From: Bacteroidota bacterium
GTDB taxonomy: Bacteria > Bacteroidota > Bacteroidia > Chitinophagales > JADIYW01
Assembly (NCBI GenBank): GCA_028288625.1
Contig: JAQBNI010000090.1
Coordinates: 1 to 62,287 of the forward strand
Reading direction: 5' to 3'
Length of the DNA: 62,287 bases
In this document: piece after piece, positions 1 to 20,915 of the stretch
Layout: each line of letters starts with the position of its first letter
How positions within the stretch are numbered: position 1 is the stretch's first letter
Position numbers and translations under genes: made by a program
The notes under the pieces: generated by a model
Databases searched by the model: none
What the model saw: the letters and a program-made list of their open reading frames with translations, nothing else
What the model was told of the DNA's origin: nothing

Positions 1-962
1 TTTTGTGTGTCTTTTGCTGTACGCATCATTTCATCCAACGCATATCTTTCGGCAAAGGATCCCATCACGTTTAACACCAGCACACCGCTGAAAAGACCGA
101 CTACAACAAACAGTGGCGTTGCGATCGCTTTTATAAACGGGCTTTTAATATTGTGTCTTCCTCTTGCAAATACCCATACAGCCAATGCAGGTGCAAATGA
201 AAGAATGATATAAACTTTGATTACTATTAAAATATAAACATTGATCCCGACAAGAAATACATTCACAAGAATATTCTTTCTTTTAAATACAATATTATAA
301 ACGGAATTTACCAGTATTCCTAAAGCGCCTATGCAAAATGAATCTTTCATTAATCCCGTTCCCCAAAAGCATAATGAAGGAATAAACAGGCAGGAGAATG
401 CAATTTCTTTTTCAAGGTGCGGATAAAGTTCCTGGAACACTTTAAACAATCGCCAGCAGCCTACAAATGCATACAAAGTAAACATCGTTGAGATAACTAA
501 GAAACTGCTGAAACAAAAGTAGCTTAAAAACAATCCGATTCTGATGATGTTTGCCGTTGCGCCGTCAAACATGTAAACCCCGCAATCATACGCCTGGCTG
601 CATAACCACTTTCTCGATTCAAAATCTGTGGGATCAAAAACAACTTTGAAAAAGAGTTGCGGGTTCTGAAACAGAAGAGGCTTTAAATATAATATGTGGT
701 AAAAATATACAATTGTATCGCCTCCTTTATAATATAGGTCGTACATCAATGCAGTGAGAACGGTACATATCAGCCTAATATATAAAGCCCTTAAAAAATA
801 TTTTCCATAAATGGGATCTGCGCTTTTTGTTTTCGCATAATTTGTGAAAAACCGAATAACGATATAAGCAAAAATCGGAACAGTTATTATGTCAATGACA
901 AAAAATAACGGCTGGTGACGGTCGCGAACGAAATATGGAAATATTTCAAATAATAAAGTCAT
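1..962 (-). CDS. Wzy/EpsG-like polysaccharide membrane protein, 3' part cut off by window edge
   Basis: Reading the minus strand from the ATG at 962-960 gives 320 codons with no stop, running off the left edge. The product is a polytopic membrane protein with many hydrophobic segments. It has an N-terminal MTLLFEIFPYFVRDRHQP start and, about two thirds along, a segment reading FWGTGLMKDSF. Motifs of the form FWxSGxxKD are common in O-antigen/exopolysaccharide polymerase-like (EpsG/Wzy) membrane proteins of Bacteroidota; that family link is from memory of the motif, not from a search. It is divergent from the glycan operon starting at 1079, which fits a surface-polysaccharide role. It could also be another polytopic glycan protein. 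The gene is clearly real; the exact family is uncertain. Confidence 0.65.
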   Translation of the reverse strand, partial: MTLLFEIFPYFVRDRHQPLFFVIDIITVPIFAYIVIRFFTNYAKTKSADPIYGKYFLRALYIRLICTVLTALMYDLYYKGGDTIVYFYHILYLKPLLFQNPQLFFKVVFDPTDFESRKWLCSQAYDCGVYMFDGATANIIRIGLFLSYFCFSSFLVISTMFTLYAFVGCWRLFKVFQELYPHLEKEIAFSCLFIPSLCFWGTGLMKDSFCIGALGILVNSVYNIVFKRKNILVNVFLVGINVYILIVIKVYIILSFAPALAVWVFARGRHNIKSPFIKAIATPLFVVVGLFSGVLVLNVMGSFAERYALDEMMRTAKDTQ

Positions 963-1078: not shown

Positions 1079-2236
1079 ATGGATTATAGTGTAATTTTAC
1101 AGCACATGAGCGTAAATTTATTTGCTTATTTTAAAAACTTAAATGGATTGAGATTCATTGCAGCTTTCCTGGTGATTATCCATCACATCGAACAGTTCAA
1201 ACATTTATTTCAGTATCCAGGCTATGTTTATCACTCACAAATTGATTCATTGGGTGATATAGGTGTTATTATCTTCTTTGTTCTAAGTGGGTTCCTGATC
1301 ACATACATCTTATTAAAAGAAAAAGATATTAAGAAAGATATCGGGTTATTGTCTTTTTACATGAAAAGGATATTGAGGATATGGCCATTATATTTTTTAG
1401 TGATCATTCTGGGGTTGTTTGTTTTTAACCGAATTCCATTTTTCAGCCAGCATCCGATTTACAGCGACTTCTCCCGCGGTTATTCAACAAAGATCTTATT
1501 GTTCTTTTTAATTTTGCCGAATATTGTTATCCAGACTTATGGCATTACCCCGCTGATCGCACAGTCCTGGTCGATCGGAGTGGAAGAACAATTCTATCTT
1601 TTCTGGCCACTATTAATGAAAACATTCAGCAGGTCTTTGTACGTGATCATATTGGTATGGTTCTTTTCCATTTCTGCAACATTGTTAAGCTGGTATCTTC
1701 CTTCCCACCATCTTATTCATAGCCCCGTTGTATTAAAGTATTGTGATTTTATTAAATTATATTTATACAACTTTAAAATAAATTGTATGGCGATCGGAGG
1801 AATTGGTGCGCATATATTGTTTTATAACAACCGTACATTGCTTAATATTATCTATCACAAAATGACACAGATCACAGCTTATATTGCGGCAATAGTAATT
1901 CTCGCGATCGGCGTACCCACAACTACAGTGAACGAACAAATTATTAGTCTCGTAAGTATAGTGATCATCCTTAATTTATCTTCTAATACGCATTCGTTGC
2001 TCAGTTTAGAAAATAAGATCCTGAATTACCTGGGAAAAATTTCTTATGGCGTTTATATGTTTCACCCGCTTTGTATTTTTATTACCTTGAGGGTTTTATT
2101 CAGATCAAATTTGCTGCATAATAATGTTTTCGACAATGTATTTATTTATACGATATCCATCCTGCTGACGATATTGTTGTCCGCAGCATCATACCGCTTT
2201 TATGAAAGTAAATTCCTTAAGTTAAAACCAAGATAA
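1079..2236 (+). CDS. Membrane O-acyltransferase, acyltransferase_3 (OafA/YrhL) family
   Basis: 385-residue polytopic protein of the acyltransferase_3 family, which moves acetyl or other acyl groups onto sugars of surface glycans. The family signature is visible near the N-terminus: LNGLRFIAAFLVIIHH, with the conserved Arg and His pair, then FFVLSGFLITY. Further on, SWSIGVEEQFYLFWPLL is the typical second conserved block. Around ten hydrophobic segments follow, with the late GKISYGVYMFHP motif. The length is usual for single-domain members without the periplasmic SGNH domain. It is the first gene of a tight operon of sugar-modifying genes, and only 5 bases separate it from the next gene. An in-frame ATG nine codons in (1106) is an alternative start. 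The acceptor sugar cannot be told from sequence. Confidence 0.9.
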   Translation: MDYSVILQHMSVNLFAYFKNLNGLRFIAAFLVIIHHIEQFKHLFQYPGYVYHSQIDSLGDIGVIIFFVLSGFLITYILLKEKDIKKDIGLLSFYMKRILRIWPLYFLVIILGLFVFNRIPFFSQHPIYSDFSRGYSTKILLFFLILPNIVIQTYGITPLIAQSWSIGVEEQFYLFWPLLMKTFSRSLYVIILVWFFSISATLLSWYLPSHHLIHSPVVLKYCDFIKLYLYNFKINCMAIGGIGAHILFYNNRTLLNIIYHKMTQITAYIAAIVILAIGVPTTTVNEQIISLVSIVIILNLSSNTHSLLSLENKILNYLGKISYGVYMFHPLCIFITLRVLFRSNLLHNNVFDNVFIYTISILLTILLSAASYRFYESKFLKLKPR

Positions 2237-2241
2237 TTTTT

Positions 2242-3159
2242 ATGCTTCTTTCTGTTGTGTCGCCGGTATATAATGCAGAGATGCATATAAATGATTTTGT
2301 TACGGAAGTTGAAAAAAATATTTCTTCTATAACAAGTGATTATGAAATTATTTTAGTGGATGATTTCAGCCGTGATCATTCATGGCAAAAAATACTTGAA
2401 ATTTGTGCAGTGAATAATAAAGTAAAGGGAATAAAATTAAGCAGGAATTTCGGACAGCATTACGCAATTACGGCAGGACTCGACAGCACCACGGGAGAAA
2501 AGGTCGTGGTGATGGATTGCGATCTGCAGGATGATCCCACGCAAATAACGAATCTGTATAAAAAATGCCTCGAAGGATTTGATGTAGTGCTGGCAAGAAG
2601 AATAGATCGAAAGGATAATTTTACGAAAAAGATATCTTCCAAATTATTCTGGAAATCGCTTGGTTACTTAACAGGAACAGACATAGATCACACTATAGCT
2701 AACTTTGGTATTTACAGCAGGAATGTAATTGATGCGGTGTGCTCGCTGCGCGAATCTATTCGCTTTTTCCCGTCGATGATCTTGTGGGTTGGGTTCAGTA
2801 AAACAACGATTGATGTTGAACATAAAGAACGCAGATCGGGTAAAAGCGGGTATAATTATTCAAGAATGTTTAAGCTTGCGCTCGATGTAATGCTTGCATA
2901 TTCCGATAAGCCCATACGCATCGTCATCAAAACCGGTTTTGTAATTTCCTTCATCTCTTTGTTGTTAGGCATCTACTATTTTATATTAAATGTTACGCAC
3001 CGCATCATCGTTCCGGGGTATACAAGTATTATTATTTCCATCTGGTTTTTAGGGGGATTGATCATCCTGATCCTGGGTATTATCGGATTATATATCGGTA
3101 AAACATTTGAAGGGGTAAAGAACAGACCGATTTACATTGTAGAAAAGAAGATCAACTAA
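2242..3159 (+). CDS. Polyprenol-phosphate glycosyltransferase, GT2 (DPMS/GtrB/ArnC type)
   Basis: 305-residue GT2 enzyme. Residues 1-210 form the GT-A catalytic domain: VSPVYNAE at the start, LVDDFSRD near 39-45, and the metal-binding MDCDLQDDP around 91-99. After that come two transmembrane segments (about 225-250 and 262-290), the arrangement of GtrB, ArnC and bacterial dolichol-phosphate-mannose-synthase-like enzymes. These transfer a sugar from a nucleotide donor to undecaprenyl phosphate at the inner membrane, making a lipid-linked donor for a GT-C enzyme. Such a GT-C enzyme is encoded in the same operon (4974-6485), and a 4-amino-sugar aminotransferase and acetyltransferase lie between them. 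The stop overlaps the next ATG by one base. Sugar specificity is inferred from context only. Confidence 0.88.
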   Translation: MLLSVVSPVYNAEMHINDFVTEVEKNISSITSDYEIILVDDFSRDHSWQKILEICAVNNKVKGIKLSRNFGQHYAITAGLDSTTGEKVVVMDCDLQDDPTQITNLYKKCLEGFDVVLARRIDRKDNFTKKISSKLFWKSLGYLTGTDIDHTIANFGIYSRNVIDAVCSLRESIRFFPSMILWVGFSKTTIDVEHKERRSGKSGYNYSRMFKLALDVMLAYSDKPIRIVIKTGFVISFISLLLGIYYFILNVTHRIIVPGYTSIIISIWFLGGLIILILGIIGLYIGKTFEGVKNRPIYIVEKKIN

Positions 3160-3869
3160 TGAAGATATTGCCGGTGATATGGGATTCCGAATTTTTTGGT
3201 TTGAAGATCGGAAAAATAGATCCATCAGAATTTAATAAGGATGATTTTGAATCACAAAAAAATAATTTCGATCTCATTTATTTATTTGAATCTCCCGGCT
3301 CACCACTCAATAAAGATATTGTAGCTATCAATGCTCATCTTGTGGACGAAAAGAAAACATACGTTAAACAAGTTGACAGTAATATAAAGATGGATAAACA
3401 CATTAATGTCTATACATCATTAACGCCTGATCAAAACTTAACCCGGCTTTCTTTGCAAAGCGGTATTTATTCGAGGTTTAAGCTGGATAAGAATTTTGCG
3501 CCGGGTGCTTATGAAAAATTATACGGCGAATGGATCAAAAAATCGTGTAATAAATCGATGTCGCTTTGTGTATTGGTATATGGAAATGAAAATGATCCGC
3601 AAGGATTTATTACTATAGCTGAAAGAAACGGTGAAGCACAAATAGGATTAATTGCGGTAGATGATAGTTCGAGAGGTAAGGGCATCGGGAAAAAATTGAT
3701 CACTGCGGCGGAATATACAGCAGAAAATTATAACTTTGGTTCTCTTAAAGTTGTTACGCAGGGTGCAAACACGGATGCCTGCAAATTATACGAGAAATGC
3801 GGGTTCACTCTTGATCATGCAATAAACATATATCATTACTGGAACAAAGACAATGCACATACCCTTTAA
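3159..3869 (+). CDS. wecD: WecD-like GNAT sugar N-acetyltransferase
   Basis: 236 residues. The N-terminal WDSEFFGLKIGKI motif is typical of WecD/RffC-type TDP-fucosamine acetyltransferases. The C-terminal half is a GNAT fold with the acetyl-CoA loop SSRGKGIGKKL and the late GANTDACKLYEKCGF. WecD acetylates the 4-amino group of dTDP-4-amino-4,6-dideoxygalactose to give dTDP-Fuc4NAc. The next gene encodes the matching aminotransferase and overlaps this one by 17 bases, so the pair is almost certainly translated together. The overall layout, including YEKLYGEWIKKS before the GNAT core, resembles E. coli RffC in gene order and motif order. A related amino-sugar acetyltransferase with another hexose is possible. 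Confidence 0.78.
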   Translation: MKILPVIWDSEFFGLKIGKIDPSEFNKDDFESQKNNFDLIYLFESPGSPLNKDIVAINAHLVDEKKTYVKQVDSNIKMDKHINVYTSLTPDQNLTRLSLQSGIYSRFKLDKNFAPGAYEKLYGEWIKKSCNKSMSLCVLVYGNENDPQGFITIAERNGEAQIGLIAVDDSSRGKGIGKKLITAAEYTAENYNFGSLKVVTQGANTDACKLYEKCGFTLDHAINIYHYWNKDNAHTL

Positions 3870-4977
3870 TAAACCATCTATTTCAGGAAATGAAATGGCT
3901 TATATACAGCAAGCGGTAGAATCGGGAAAGATCTCCGGCGACGGCATGTTTACAAAAAAATGCCATAAATTTTTTGAAGAAAGATTCGGTTTTAAAAAAG
4001 CTTTATTAACTACTTCCTGCACGGATGCCCTGGAAATGGCAGCTATCCTGATCAATATCCGGGAAGGTGATGAAGTGATATTGCCTTCTTATACATTTGT
4101 TTCTACTGCAAATGCTTTCGTACTCAGAGGCGCAAAATTAATTTTTGCCGACAGCCGTAAAGATCATCCGGGCATGGATGAAGCGCTGATTGAATCGTTG
4201 ATCACAGAAAAGACAAAAGCGATCGTTGTTGTACATTATGCTGGTGTTGCCTGCGATATGGACATCATTATGCAGCTTGCTGAAAAACATAATCTCTACA
4301 TTATTGAAGATGCCGCGCAAGGTATCGACAGCTATTATAAAAATAAGCCATTGGGTAGTATAGGGCATTTAGCATCGTTCTCATTTCACGAAACAAAAAA
4401 TATTATTTCGGGCGAAGGTGGAATGCTTACCATCAACGATGAACAATTTAAAGAGCGCGCAGAAATAGTAAGAGAAAAAGGAACAAACAGGAGTAAATTT
4501 TTCAGAGGGGAGGTTGATAAATATAATTGGGTAGATATCGGATCTTCATATTTACCGTCAGATATAATCGCGGCATTTTTATATGCCCAGTTGGAAAACC
4601 TGGAGAAGATACAGGATAAGAGAAAGCTCATATGGGAAACGTATATGGAAGAGTTAAAGGTGTTGAAAGATGTAGTGCAGCTTCCTGTAATTCCTGATTA
4701 TGCCACTAACAACGCGCATATGTTTTACCTGGTTTGTAAAAATATTGAACAGCGCGATGCATTGATCAATTATCTTAAGGAAAAGAATATACACACCGTT
4801 TTCCATTATATAAGTCTGCACAATAGCCCTTTTTATAAAGATATACATGGCGACCGCAGGTTGCCTTTAAGTGATTTTTATTCTGAAGGATTGCTGCGGC
4901 TCCCGCTGTATTATGAATTGGAAATTGACCAGGTCAAAGCGGTTTCAAAAAGTATTTTATCTTTTTTTAAGGTATGA
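3853..4977 (+). CDS. wecE: dTDP-4-amino-4,6-dideoxygalactose transaminase (WecE/RffA)
   Basis: 374-residue PLP-dependent DegT/DnrJ/EryC1 aminotransferase. It follows enterobacterial WecE closely in block after block: IPFNKPSISGNEMAY at the N-terminus, GDEVILPSYTFVSTANAFVL around 72-91, VHYAGVACDMD near 127-137, IEDAAQG near 151-157, and the PLP lysine in FHETKN at about residue 182, followed by REKGTNRSKFFRGEVDKY. WecE converts dTDP-4-keto-6-deoxyglucose to the 4-amino-galacto sugar using glutamate. With the overlapping WecD-like gene it would supply dTDP-Fuc4NAc. The upstream TDP-glucose enzymes (RmlA, RmlB) are not in this window. The stop codon overlaps the next start as ATGA, indicating translational coupling. 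Confidence 0.92.
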   Translation: MHIPFNKPSISGNEMAYIQQAVESGKISGDGMFTKKCHKFFEERFGFKKALLTTSCTDALEMAAILINIREGDEVILPSYTFVSTANAFVLRGAKLIFADSRKDHPGMDEALIESLITEKTKAIVVVHYAGVACDMDIIMQLAEKHNLYIIEDAAQGIDSYYKNKPLGSIGHLASFSFHETKNIISGEGGMLTINDEQFKERAEIVREKGTNRSKFFRGEVDKYNWVDIGSSYLPSDIIAAFLYAQLENLEKIQDKRKLIWETYMEELKVLKDVVQLPVIPDYATNNAHMFYLVCKNIEQRDALINYLKEKNIHTVFHYISLHNSPFYKDIHGDRRLPLSDFYSEGLLRLPLYYELEIDQVKAVSKSILSFFKV

Positions 4978-6485
4978 AGAAAGAGCACCGTAAAATAGCG
5001 ATCTGTTTATTGATTATTTCTTTATGCTATACTTATCTCGTTAACTGTGTGAATATACACCACATAAAAAAAGAGAACCCCCAGAATCTTCAGAATAACG
5101 CACGCAGTCTTGTATACAATTCAACTATTTATTCTATAGATAATTACTGGTACGTAAATAATATTAAGAATTTTATTTCTTCAGGACGCTTTACTGTTGA
5201 CACGACAAAAAAGAATTATGAAGTAAGACGAACTCCCGTTTATCCAATATTTTACGGATTGCATTATATGGCATTCGGAGAAGAAAAGAGTTATTATTTC
5301 ATCAGGTTTACGCAGGCAATTATTCTTGCATTAGCTACAGTGTTTTTATTTTTCGCAGTTTTTAATTTCACTCAGAATAAATACATTTCTCTTGGGGCTG
5401 CCTTATTATACTGCCTTCAACCCGGGGTTGCCATCAGCGCATATTTCACAAATTCAGAATCATTAAGTTCTGAGCTGGTTTGTTTCCTGTTGTATTCACT
5501 GTCATTATGCAAACTGCAGCCGGAAAATAAAAAAAGATGGTTATTCTTCGGATTTCTTTTTGCACTTGGGGCATTATGCAGACCTACAGTTATATTCCTG
5601 GCGCCTTCCTGTTTGTTTGCTGTTTTATATTTTAACAGATGGGATTTAAAGAAAAGTATTTTTTCCGCAATATTATTTTGCTTTGGTGCAGCGGTATTGT
5701 TTTTGCCATGGACCATCAGGAATTATTTTGTTACTAATGGTGATGTTGTTCTTTTAGAAAAATATTACGGCGATCCGATGGATTATGGAATGCCGAATAT
5801 TTATTTGCGGAAGTGGATAGCCTGCTGGATAAATCCTGCAGATTATTCTTCGGAAAGGATCTCAAACACGATGCGCGCTAATATCGCATTAAACGAACCT
5901 GCTGCAAAAGAAGCGGTAGTTGATTCTTTGATCTCCGCCTTGCCTCCGAAAGCATACATCGGCAACCATAAGCCGGAAATCAGGAAAGCATATCTTGATA
6001 TTTATGAATTTTACCGCGTTAAGCATTTTGCACAGCAATCGAATACGGATTCTATCGAGACAGTTGCTTCAAACAACCTCCGTCAATTAAAAACAAATTT
6101 TATAAAAAGATCGCCGTTAGACTATTATATCATTACACCGATATTATTTGCGAAGAGCGTTATCTTCCAAAGCAATTCAACGTCATTAAGTTTTGTAGAT
6201 AATTATCACGGAGATTGCCTGAAGATCTTCATAAAAGGAATTTTGTATCTCATAAATGTATTATCCTTTCTCTCCGTTTTTTTCTTATTATTTTATTTGA
6301 GAAAGTATGCAGATATATACTGGCTGTCCGTTTTATATATTGCGTGCACTTTTTTTGTGATCATTTATATCCTTCAGTATTTCGAGAACCGGTACACGGT
6401 TCCGCTGTATCCTTTTATGTACACTTTGCTGTCAGTAAGTATTTATGAAATGTATGTGCTTGTGAGGAAGTGGTTAAACTTCTAA
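4974..6485 (+). CDS. GT-C family membrane glycosyltransferase (PMT/ArnT-like, GT39-type)
   Basis: 503-residue polytopic protein with a first transmembrane segment near residues 7-23 and about ten more. The loop reading RRTPVYPIFYG is the GT39/PMT-like motif after the first membrane span. Enzymes of this clan use polyprenyl-phosphate sugars at the periplasmic face and transfer them to lipid A, O-antigen, teichoic acids or proteins. The operon contains a GT2 that could make such a donor, and the start overlaps the wecE stop (ATGA). The C-terminal 100 residues are again membrane-spanning. Its last 12 bases overlap the convergent CBS gene. The acceptor is unknown; ArnT-like lipid A modification and protein or O-antigen glycosylation are all open. 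Confidence 0.8.
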   Translation: MKKEHRKIAICLLIISLCYTYLVNCVNIHHIKKENPQNLQNNARSLVYNSTIYSIDNYWYVNNIKNFISSGRFTVDTTKKNYEVRRTPVYPIFYGLHYMAFGEEKSYYFIRFTQAIILALATVFLFFAVFNFTQNKYISLGAALLYCLQPGVAISAYFTNSESLSSELVCFLLYSLSLCKLQPENKKRWLFFGFLFALGALCRPTVIFLAPSCLFAVLYFNRWDLKKSIFSAILFCFGAAVLFLPWTIRNYFVTNGDVVLLEKYYGDPMDYGMPNIYLRKWIACWINPADYSSERISNTMRANIALNEPAAKEAVVDSLISALPPKAYIGNHKPEIRKAYLDIYEFYRVKHFAQQSNTDSIETVASNNLRQLKTNFIKRSPLDYYIITPILFAKSVIFQSNSTSLSFVDNYHGDCLKIFIKGILYLINVLSFLSVFFLLFYLRKYADIYWLSVLYIACTFFVIIYILQYFENRYTVPLYPFMYTLLSVSIYEMYVLVRKWLNF

Positions 6486-18884: not shown

Positions 18885-20915
18885 ATGGAAAAAAGGACAA
18901 TTGAAGACGTAAAATATTTATTTAAACGATGTAAGGAGGAAAATAAACCCAAGCCCATCATATTTTTAGGTGCAGGGATTTCGGTCTCCGCGGGAATTCC
19001 TTTAGCGAATCAGATAATTGAAAAGATTTTTGAAACATATAGTGAAAAACCACAAATTAAAAGATTAATTGCTGAGAATATTAATAATTATTATCAAATT
19101 ATGCGTGCTTTATCAGCGGATGAAAGAAGAGATTTATTTTATAGCTATATCACAGATGAAAATGTAAAAATAAATGTAGCAAATATTTATTTAGCTCAAT
19201 TACTAAAGGAAAATTACATCGATTATGTTTTTACTGTTAATTTTGATGATTTATTTTTAAAAGCTTGTTCACTTTTTAATTTTTTACCTCCCGTTTATGA
19301 TATTTCCAATTTGCAAGGGTACACGACAACAAATTTTCAAGAAAAATCAATTACATATTTACATGGTCAGTACTATGGACAATGGCTATTAAATTCCGAA
19401 GAAGAAATTAAAAAGGTTAAAGAGGCTATTAATGATTTATTTAATAGGGTATGCCATAAAAGGCCATGGATTATTATCGGATACAGTGGCCAAGATGAGG
19501 TTTTTGATGAATTGGCAAAATTCCAGAATTTTGATAACGAATTATATTGGATAGGATTTAATGATGTTGAACCTTCAGAAAAAGTAACAAATAAATTACT
19601 TGACATACCAAATAAGAGTGCTTACTGGGTTTCGGGATATGATGCAGATTCTTTCTTTCTTAAACTACATGCTGAACTAGGACTAGAAACTCCAGGATTA
19701 TTTAATAAACCTTTCTCTTTTTTGCTTTCCATGATAAATAATATAAAGGAAATAGAGAATAGCGAGAAAAAATTACACAAAGAATTATTTCAGAATGCAA
19801 AAGAAAGGATAACTATAAGTACAAAGTGGATTCATGTTGCCATTAAAACCATAGAAAATGAAGATTCTATTGAGAGATTTAAGCAAGAAATTATAGATGC
19901 AATGCTAAAGGACGATTTTAGCGAAAATAAAGCCTTTCATTTTATTACAAAGATTAAAGAGCCTAATTTTAGTAATGCCAATATAGAACTTGCTTCCTAT
20001 TTTAGTGAATGGGGATGCCAAATTTCTGAGCTAGGTAAATCAAAAAACGATGAAAACTTATATCTGAAAAGCTTTGAAAAATTTGAGAAGGCTGCAGAAT
20101 TAAACCCTCTAGATGATTCTGTCTTTTATAATTGGGGAACTGTTATTACTGAATTAGCAAAACTCACCGATAGTGTAACCCTATATTTCGAATGCTTTGA
20201 AAAGTTTAAGAAAGCCACAGAATTAAATCCTACAGATCCCTCTGCCTTTTATAATTGGGGAACAGGCATTTCTAGATTAGCGAAAATGAAAGACGATGAA
20301 AATTTATATTTCGAATGCTTTGAAAAGTTTAAGAAAGCCACAGAATTAAATCCTAAGGAAGGCCTATATCTATATAATTGGGGAACTGCCATTGCTCAAT
20401 TAGCAGGATTAAAAGGTGATGAAAATTTATATAATGAAAGTTTTGAGAAATTCGAAAAGGCAACAAAATTAAACCCGAAGGATGGTGATGCATTTGAAAA
20501 TTGGGGAGTAGCTATATCTGATTTAGCGACACTAAAAGAAGATAAGAATCTATTTAAAAAAAGTTTTGAGAAATTCGAAAAAGCAGGAAAATTAAAGTCT
20601 AAGGATGGTCAGACATTTGTCAATTGGGGTACTGCACTAATAAATTCATCATATTTATATACTTATAAAGAGCGGGAAGATATACTAATGGTAGCACTTG
20701 AGAAATCTCAGATTGCTTATAAGATGACAGGGGATTCTTATAATTTGGCTTGCACATATTCTCTTCTTGGAATAAAAGAGAAAGCTTTACAGCATTTAAA
20801 AGAAACCCTCGATAAAAATCATACTTCTGTAAATGAAGTCATTTATGATAGGGATTGGGACCTTTATACTGAAGATCCTGACTTCAAGGAAATTATTAAA
20901 CAGTTTGAAAAATAA
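18885..20915 (+). CDS. SIR2-domain protein with C-terminal TPR-like repeats, candidate anti-phage NADase
   Basis: 676 residues. Residues 1-268 form a SIR2-like domain: NAD loop GAGISVSAGIP at 29-39, catalytic-type Asn119 in FTVNFDD, His160 in YLHGQ, and GYSGQDE at 199-205. Spacing of Asn and His is very like that of the NADase ThsA of the Thoeris system. Residues 270-355 are a helical linker. From about 356 come one degenerate and five regular 41-residue TPR-like units (starting at 397, 438, 479, 520 and 561) with a recurring xNWGTxIxxLA. SIR2 effectors with repeat sensors are known defence NADases that act by abortive infection. The gene is alone, far more AT-rich than its flanks and in a separate orientation context, which suggests transfer. 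A housekeeping role is possible but less likely. Confidence 0.88.
   Translation: MEKRTIEDVKYLFKRCKEENKPKPIIFLGAGISVSAGIPLANQIIEKIFETYSEKPQIKRLIAENINNYYQIMRALSADERRDLFYSYITDENVKINVANIYLAQLLKENYIDYVFTVNFDDLFLKACSLFNFLPPVYDISNLQGYTTTNFQEKSITYLHGQYYGQWLLNSEEEIKKVKEAINDLFNRVCHKRPWIIIGYSGQDEVFDELAKFQNFDNELYWIGFNDVEPSEKVTNKLLDIPNKSAYWVSGYDADSFFLKLHAELGLETPGLFNKPFSFLLSMINNIKEIENSEKKLHKELFQNAKERITISTKWIHVAIKTIENEDSIERFKQEIIDAMLKDDFSENKAFHFITKIKEPNFSNANIELASYFSEWGCQISELGKSKNDENLYLKSFEKFEKAAELNPLDDSVFYNWGTVITELAKLTDSVTLYFECFEKFKKATELNPTDPSAFYNWGTGISRLAKMKDDENLYFECFEKFKKATELNPKEGLYLYNWGTAIAQLAGLKGDENLYNESFEKFEKATKLNPKDGDAFENWGVAISDLATLKEDKNLFKKSFEKFEKAGKLKSKDGQTFVNWGTALINSSYLYTYKEREDILMVALEKSQIAYKMTGDSYNLACTYSLLGIKEKALQHLKETLDKNHTSVNEVIYDRDWDLYTEDPDFKEIIKQFEK
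20073..20687 (+). repeat. Five 123-bp tandem units inside the SIR2-TPR gene
   Basis: Units begin at 20073, 20196, 20319, 20442 and 20565 and encode 41-residue TPR-like repeats. Units 2 and 3 share an uninterrupted identical stretch of about 51 bases (20182-20232 against 20305-20355), including the GAATGCTTTGAAAAG word. Such DNA-level identity points to recent duplication or gene conversion between repeats, which would let repeat number vary. Confidence 0.85.

Follow-up and report, generated by a model that had tools for sequence, protein, structure and literature searches.

The DNA analysed here (the window; 62,287 nucleotides) is one entire contig (JAQBNI010000090.1; C151) of the 3.7-Mb, 161-contig assembly GCA_028288625.1 from a Bacteroidota bacterium of the order Chitinophagales. 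Close to one end it carries a run of five intact and closely packed genes, which are predicted to make a 4-amino sugar and to use it for glycosylation outside the membrane:

1079–2236, plus strand: acyltransferase-3 membrane protein, 385 amino acids (aa) (PF01757, 89.8 bits)
2242–3159, plus strand: family 2 glycosyltransferase (GT2) of the ArnC/GtrB type, 305 aa (PF00535)
3159–3869, plus strand: WecD-like GNAT, predicted N-acetyltransferase for TDP-4-amino-4,6-dideoxygalactose (TDP-Fuc4N), 236 aa (Acetyltransf_1)
3853–4977, plus strand: WecE, TDP-4-keto-6-deoxyglucose 4-aminotransferase, 374 aa (NF008687, TIGR02379)
4974–6485, plus strand: GT-C membrane glycosyltransferase of the PMT_2 type, 503 aa (Pfam PMT_2)

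The last four genes overlap (GT2/GNAT, −1 bp; GNAT/WecE, −17 bp; WecE/GT-C, −4 bp) and contain no internal stops. This four-gene set at 2242–6485 and the identities of its genes, as given in a preliminary description of the site, were borne out by gene calls and family matches. The run is longer than was described, being headed by the acyltransferase-3 gene 5 bp upstream of the GT2 gene. Promoter-like and terminator-like sites in the run did not exceed shuffled expectation, and the repeats detected there, for which no chance estimate was made, were short and in few copies.

The aminotransferase is clearly a WecE. It scored well over the curated cut-offs (NF008687, 584 bits against 375; TIGR02379, 546 against 435), is 56% identical to E. 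coli K-12 WecE and 32% identical to ArnB, and reached 242 bits with the ArnB model against a cut-off of 631, so that it does not qualify as ArnB-type. Lys182, within HETKN, is in a motif shared with the solved WecE chain 4piw. A UDP-pentose substrate, suggested by dehydrogenase and short-chain dehydrogenase/reductase (SDR) genes beside the site in relatives, was set aside as the leading idea, given how far the match of the aminotransferase to WecE exceeds that to ArnB. The window genome encodes equivalogs of RmlA (contig C10, 476 bits; cut-off 361) and RmlB (contig C1, 469 bits; cut-off 365), and rmlA and rmlB are found inside some of the related operons described below. The TDP-Fuc4N route named in the preliminary description is thus supported. 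The GNAT is 25% identical to E. coli WecD over nearly its whole length. A plasmid search with WecE returned no relative of at least 60% identity.

The GT2 belongs to the GtrB/ArnC superfamily. It is 31% identical to E. coli K-12 ArnC over nearly its whole length by BLAST, with a score below the ArnC cut-off (NF007986, 169 bits against 529), and gave near full-length matches to both GtrB and ArnC chains among solved structures; hydrophobic C-terminal segments are visible. The superfamily marks DxD, Px(Y/F), (F/Y)G(Q/K) and the Arg sites all align, as judged against a list of metal-binding and carrier-binding motifs of polyprenyl-phosphate GT2 enzymes (PMC9927302). The window protein carries DxD, NFGQH and ANFGIY. 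An N[FY]GQH stretch is common to this GT2 and ArnC and is missing from YfdH and the three paralogs shown, and an Asn replaces the Asp that GtrB and YfdH carry in GDFR, which in GtrB is taken to be Asp157 of the same list.

Related GT2 genes were found next to WecE in many other genomes. GTDB was scanned with nine aligned GT2s from WecE neighbourhoods and two short patterns, one of them with NFGQ, and the best 80 loci were kept; linkage was therefore measured within that GT2 clade. With a tblastn threshold of 45% identity, WecE was detected no more than 4 kb from the GT2 in 63 of the 80 loci, 60 of them on the same strand, and in 60 of 77 once the three loci that are contigs of query rows (L093, L120 and L158) are set aside. 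Among the 57 loci with 4 kb of sequence on both sides, 48 have WecE, and over the whole flanks examined the count is 66 of 80. Counting from open reading frames (ORFs) gave 62 of 79, L131 being lost to ORF picking. The members are mainly from Bacteroidota, and WecE-linked loci also come from Thalassobacillus, Halobacillus, Marithrix, a zetaproteobacterial bin and a campylobacterotal bin, so that Bacteroidota, Bacillota, Pseudomonadota and Campylobacterota are represented; one locus titled Deltaproteobacteria is without WecE.

The linkage falls off with distance from the window GT2. In an identity-graded control, the positions of 149 GT2 matches in 60 related genomes were set against those of 33 WecE loci (at least 48% identity). 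Six of the eight GT2s at least 43% identical to that of the window lie within 8 kb of WecE, against 3/26 at 35–42% identity and 7/115 below 35% (10/141 for the more distant ones together). A GT2 tree was built from 82 of 120 collected rows, some of them copies of one protein. WecE-linked rows make up 47 of 61 in one part of the tree; the part that contains YfdH and 19 paralogs has none among its 20 rows, and the linkage label changes 10 times, compared with a mean of 26.6 for shuffled labels. ArnC forms a long branch of uncertain placement. Rows L213–L242 were scored as not linked on 1.5-kb flanks; hence L220 and L056, although a single protein, carry different labels. The motif [AGS]NFG[ILVM]Y is present in 72 of 79 WecE-linked rows and in 13 of 39 unlinked ones (copies included), and those 13 are 49–58% identical to the window GT2.

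The gene for the N-modifying enzyme, in contrast to the constant GT2-WecE pair, changes from genome to genome, as does the membrane end-user. Among the 63 WecE-linked loci, a WecD-like GNAT was found in 43, a hexapeptide protein in 7 and a formyltransferase-like protein in 4, and none of the 63 has two of these three kinds (hexapeptide proteins being sought with one query). L139 also carries a WbqC protein and L160 another hexapeptide protein, each within 4 kb on the opposite strand. Two of the remaining nine loci have a methyltransferase-domain protein in the slot (L142:7914–8576 and L159:7914–8588, the two in which methyltransferases were examined; the listed ORF overlaps GT2 and WecE), one has a WbqC protein between GT2 and WecE, and six have none of the N-modifier kinds searched for, their neighbours having had no gene-by-gene scan. 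WbqC-family proteins (PF08889) lie near clade GT2s at L171:6374–7072, L056:2733–3425 and L070:3263–3973, that of L171 being the one in the slot. In L060 the formyltransferase-like gene (5021–5905, minus strand) stands between GT2 and WecE on the opposite strand. Its product, like the other formyltransferase-like slot proteins in the alignment, is without the Asn of the ArnA formyltransferase triad, which we take to be Asn-His-Asp. Formylation by these proteins is therefore not asserted. On a quick tree of 85 rows the hexapeptide label changed 6 times for 7 rows and the formyltransferase-like label 4 times for 4, about as scattered as shuffled labels, which suggests that replacement is frequent. 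The GT2-WecE pair with an exchangeable N-modifier and end-user is well supported at the level of linkage.

Two complete operons include sugar-nucleotide genes:

L172, Flavobacterium beibuense: rmlB-rmlA-rmlC-rmlD-GT2-GNAT-WecE-PMT, all rml genes over cut-off, junctions −14 to +15 bp
L166, Thalassobacillus devorans: rmlA-rmlB-GT2-GNAT-ArnF-like-WecE-DUF6044, starting 277 bp after a bioB-like gene

The small protein of L166 is best matched by the ArnF model (54 bits; cut-off 99), and the operon ends with a DUF6044 membrane protein (L166:9960–11801, 741 bits), a term not found in the open-access literature searched. Neither rmlC nor rmlD occurs in the stretch from rmlA to the membrane protein, so that the RmlB product would presumably be available to WecE. 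In L170, from Halobacillus, rmlA, rmlB, GNAT, SMR and WecE are arranged as in L166. In L136 two EamA proteins are encoded between GNAT and WecE, and ArnE is the best match of one of them (33 bits; cut-off 92).

The GT-C protein exceeds the Pfam PMT_2 cut-off (39.4 bits against 26.1). BLAST against E. coli ArnT gave chance-level matches only (E values of 1.5 and 6.5). Asp56 is invariant in 15 aligned rows, and a weak profile match over columns 55–252 (E value of 0.0027, probability 11%) places it on the DE site of ArnT. Comparison with solved structures gave no match with the sequence alone and one chance match with a profile; a single-sequence structure prediction (mean predicted local distance difference test score of 43) was too poor for use in a fold search. 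Among 396 genomes of the order, only those of the genus encode close relatives of this protein; the next match, in G387, scores 254 bits. The membrane proteins beside the module are of mixed kinds. A Pfam scan of 38 of the 55 listed, the other 17 being farther from the module, gave PMT_2 in 7, DUF6044 in 3, Acyl_transf_3 in 3, YfhO in 1, some unrelated families and many without a match; a GT-C is therefore not claimed for every locus.

These data bear on the acceptor. The activities stand in an Arn-like order, ArnE-like and ArnF-like proteins accompany some relatives, and the six linked loci without a recognised N-modifier (not all of whose neighbours were scanned) could yield a free amine. 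The cassette might thus be a Bacteroidota counterpart of 4-amino-4-deoxy-arabinose (Ara4N) addition, placing a 4-amino sugar on lipid A and altering surface charge. We consider this improbable. The window GNAT would cap the amine, the GT-C is no ArnT by BLAST and has its close relatives only within the genus, and the same module is carried by Bacillota. Since Bacillota have no lipid A, lipid A cannot be the general acceptor.

Taken together, the run is best explained as an export-side glycosylation system in which the 4-amino-4,6-dideoxygalactose made by WecE is carried on polyprenyl phosphate and finally transferred outside by the GT-C; from the gene content and its recurrence, we put the probability of this reading at about two in three. 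RmlA and RmlB, encoded elsewhere in the genome, would supply TDP-4-keto-6-deoxyglucose, which WecE would aminate to TDP-Fuc4N. The WecD-like GNAT would N-acylate this product, most likely to TDP-Fuc4NAc. On the cytoplasmic side of the membrane the GT2 is predicted to load the sugar onto polyprenyl phosphate, and a flippase would turn the lipid-linked sugar over. The GT-C would then pass it to an external acceptor, most likely a surface polysaccharide or lipopolysaccharide (LPS), and the acyltransferase-3 protein may O-acylate the sugar or the acceptor. The genes, their families, order and recurrence and the presence of rmlA and rmlB are observed, and the reactions, carrier, direction and acceptor are inferred. 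A wecF-like glycosyltransferase, which the preliminary description had named as contrary evidence, was looked for and not found. WecF (PF07429) had no match in the window genome, in a search whose control matched E. coli alone of 14 genomes, and neither WecF nor ArnD was present in the flanks examined (up to 7 kb) of any of the 80 loci.

A number of observations weigh against the export-side reading. The GNAT falls under the WecD cut-offs (NF008212, 96 bits against 219 in a near full-length match; TIGR02382, 56 against 195) and is therefore called WecD-like only. No flippase was found in the window genome, which leaves a gap in the pathway. The GtrA family (PF04138) had no match there, in a search whose control matched 7 of 14 genomes, and the L136 EamA protein found no match in a search run without a positive control. 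WecE is missing within 4 kb in 17 of the 80 survey loci, 9 of which have at least 4 kb on both sides, and in 14 it is missing from all of the flanks examined. In the 60 related genomes, 16 of the 33 WecE loci have such a GT2 within 8 kb and 17, some near contig ends, do not; WecE must therefore have other uses. Among solved structures the GT2 scores nearer to GtrB than to ArnC.

The last two points, together with the occurrence of the GT-C beside another donor cassette (see below), favour an alternative in which the GT2, GtrB-like, loads an ordinary UDP-sugar (glucose or N-acetylhexosamine) for the GT-C, while WecE and the GNAT feed a separate cytoplasmic assembly of O-antigen or capsule and their adjacency reflects the clustering of surface-glycan genes. 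Such an arrangement would have to account for the 63 linked loci of 80, 54 of these 63 with one N-modifier of the three searched kinds, and for the rarity of WecE beside more distant GT2s. In L166 the genes from rmlA to the membrane protein include no second cytoplasmic glycosyltransferase. The N[FY]GQH stretch also sides with ArnC rather than with YfdH and the three paralogs, a point qualified by the NFGQ that one of the two scan patterns required. We regard this alternative as unlikely.

The other contrary observations come from the same site in the genus, which is bounded in the window by two genes:

3–962, minus strand: membrane protein without a Pfam match, divergent from the run and truncated by the contig end
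6474–7133, minus strand: CBS-domain protein, convergent with the GT-C gene and overlapping its end, marking a conserved chromosomal site in the genus

The CBS side and the genes behind it (TonB-like, xth and peptide-binding) are present in all seven congeners examined (G001–G007), and the divergent membrane protein on the other side in four (G001, G003, G004 and G006). In several of the genomes that keep the latter gene, it is followed by a UDP-glucose-dehydrogenase-like gene and an SDR gene. The names xth, TonB-like, peptide-binding, bioB and UDP-xylose-synthase-like were assigned by eye.

G003 has GT2-WecD-WecE-GT-C in the same four-gene order as the window. The synteny proposed in the preliminary description as a check is thus found in a relative, and the trio of GT2, N-modifier and WecE is widespread beyond the genus. 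G004 has GT2-WecD-WecE at one contig end and the GT-C beside the CBS gene at another, and G007 has WecE-GT-C up to the contig end. The acyltransferase-3 gene is not at the corresponding place in G003 and G004. The following arrangements count on the contrary side. G006 has WecE-GT-C without a GT2 at the site, its clade GT2 (54%) being on a different contig; the divergent membrane gene is present twice in this assembly, on separate contigs, and the assembly may be a mixed bin. WecE stands alone at the site in G001. In G002 and G005 the site has the GT-C, and WecE is encoded in another place. In G004 and G005 an SDR gene and a short GT2 gene directly precede the GT-C (L206:26–1840 and L207:4746–6565) and look like an alternative donor set for the same GT-C. 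In several congeners the GT-C thus has a partner GT2 from this superfamily, not always together with the WecE set, which fits the use of a polyprenyl-linked sugar and speaks against a fixed specificity for Fuc4NAc.

The different contents of the site in G001, G002, G005 and G006 could also mean that it is a decaying or shuffled site of glycan variation whose remaining genes no longer form one pathway. In favour of this, too, the GT-C is 38–46% identical within the genus, compared with 70–79% for a flanking gene. The integrity and tight packing of all five window genes, the four-gene order kept in G003 and the trio kept in distant genomes make this explanation very improbable.

The wider pattern raises a more general proposal, which we hold tentatively and at slightly less than even odds. 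Polyprenyl-phosphate 4-amino-4,6-dideoxygalactose may represent a large unnamed class of lipid-linked donors, mostly in Bacteroidota and also in Bacillota, Pseudomonadota and Campylobacterota. Its N-substituent would be set by the exchangeable slot gene (GNAT, hexapeptide acyltransferase, formyltransferase-like, methyltransferase, WbqC or none) and its acceptor by an exchangeable GT-C, so that surface glycans could be varied by single-gene swaps. WbqC-family proteins could then be amino-sugar modifiers, and slot swapping would give testable predictions for several unassigned enzymes, DUF6044 and WbqC proteins among them, and for the sugars to be sought in Bacteroidota glycans. If the export-side reading is correct, TDP-Fuc4N, known mainly as a precursor of enterobacterial common antigen (ECA) and O-antigen, also serves as the donor in a glycosylation on the outer side of the membrane, and does so in a phylum many of whose members live in gut, sea or soil. 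Fuc4NAc occurs only in Gammaproteobacteria according to a 2020 survey of 12,939 sequenced prokaryotes (PMC7725333), a range that WecE-bearing cassettes in other phyla would widen. A reference title in PMC11065906 records the sugar from the O-polysaccharide of Cellulophaga pacifica; Fuc4NAc as such is therefore already known in Bacteroidota. No account of polyprenyl-phosphate-linked Fuc4NAc or of this cassette was found among the titles and abstracts returned by searches of open-access literature, a scope outside which most subscription papers fall.

Elsewhere in the window, a gene at 18885–20915 (plus strand), in a stretch of about 0.30 G+C, encodes a 676-aa protein with a SIR2-like domain (PF13289, over cut-off) and tetratricopeptide-type repeats of 123 bp. 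Its N-terminal part matches the pAgo, SIR2-bearing Aga and PDC-S65 models of PADLOC, and it is possibly a stand-alone defence gene.

The cassette works like several known systems and differs from each. With the Arn pathway (E. coli arnBCADTEF, which adds Ara4N to lipid A) it shares the logic of a C4-aminotransferase, an N-modifier, a polyprenyl-phosphate GT2 and a GT-C. It has a WecE-family aminotransferase in place of ArnB, a separate acetyltransferase in place of ArnA and a different gene order. The Arn likeness put forward in the preliminary description accordingly stands as a functional one, to which the ArnE-like and ArnF-like proteins of some relatives, all under cut-off, contribute; it does not extend to sequence, given the lack of ArnD in the flanks of the 80 loci, a GT-C that is no ArnT by BLAST and a GT2 nearer to GtrB. 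The three-component Gtr systems (GtrA, GtrB and a GT-C) are similar in their GtrB-like GT2 and variable GT-C, and an EamA or SMR protein lies within 4 kb in 15 of the 80 loci; the cassette differs in making its own sugar nucleotide, in the lack of a GtrA-family match in the genome and in a GT2 that stands apart from YfdH in the tree. The wecD-wecE-wecF genes of ECA synthesis have WecD and WecE in the same order and the same predicted sugar nucleotide, whereas no WecF match accompanies the cassette, in the window genome or in the flanks examined of the 80 loci, and its sugar would go to polyprenyl monophosphate. In the Flm system of Francisella, which adds galactosamine to lipid A, an N-acetylated amino sugar is likewise carried on polyprenyl phosphate and used by an ArnT-like enzyme, with UDP-GalNAc as donor and a deacetylase. 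The three-component pentofuranose pathway of Citrobacter (PMC11127046) also combines a polyprenyl-phosphate donor, a small flippase and a GT-C acting outside; its carrier-loading enzyme, according to the authors of that paper, has no similarity to GtrB, and the sugar is a different one. The cassette thus works like the Arn and three-component systems and fits the definition of neither.

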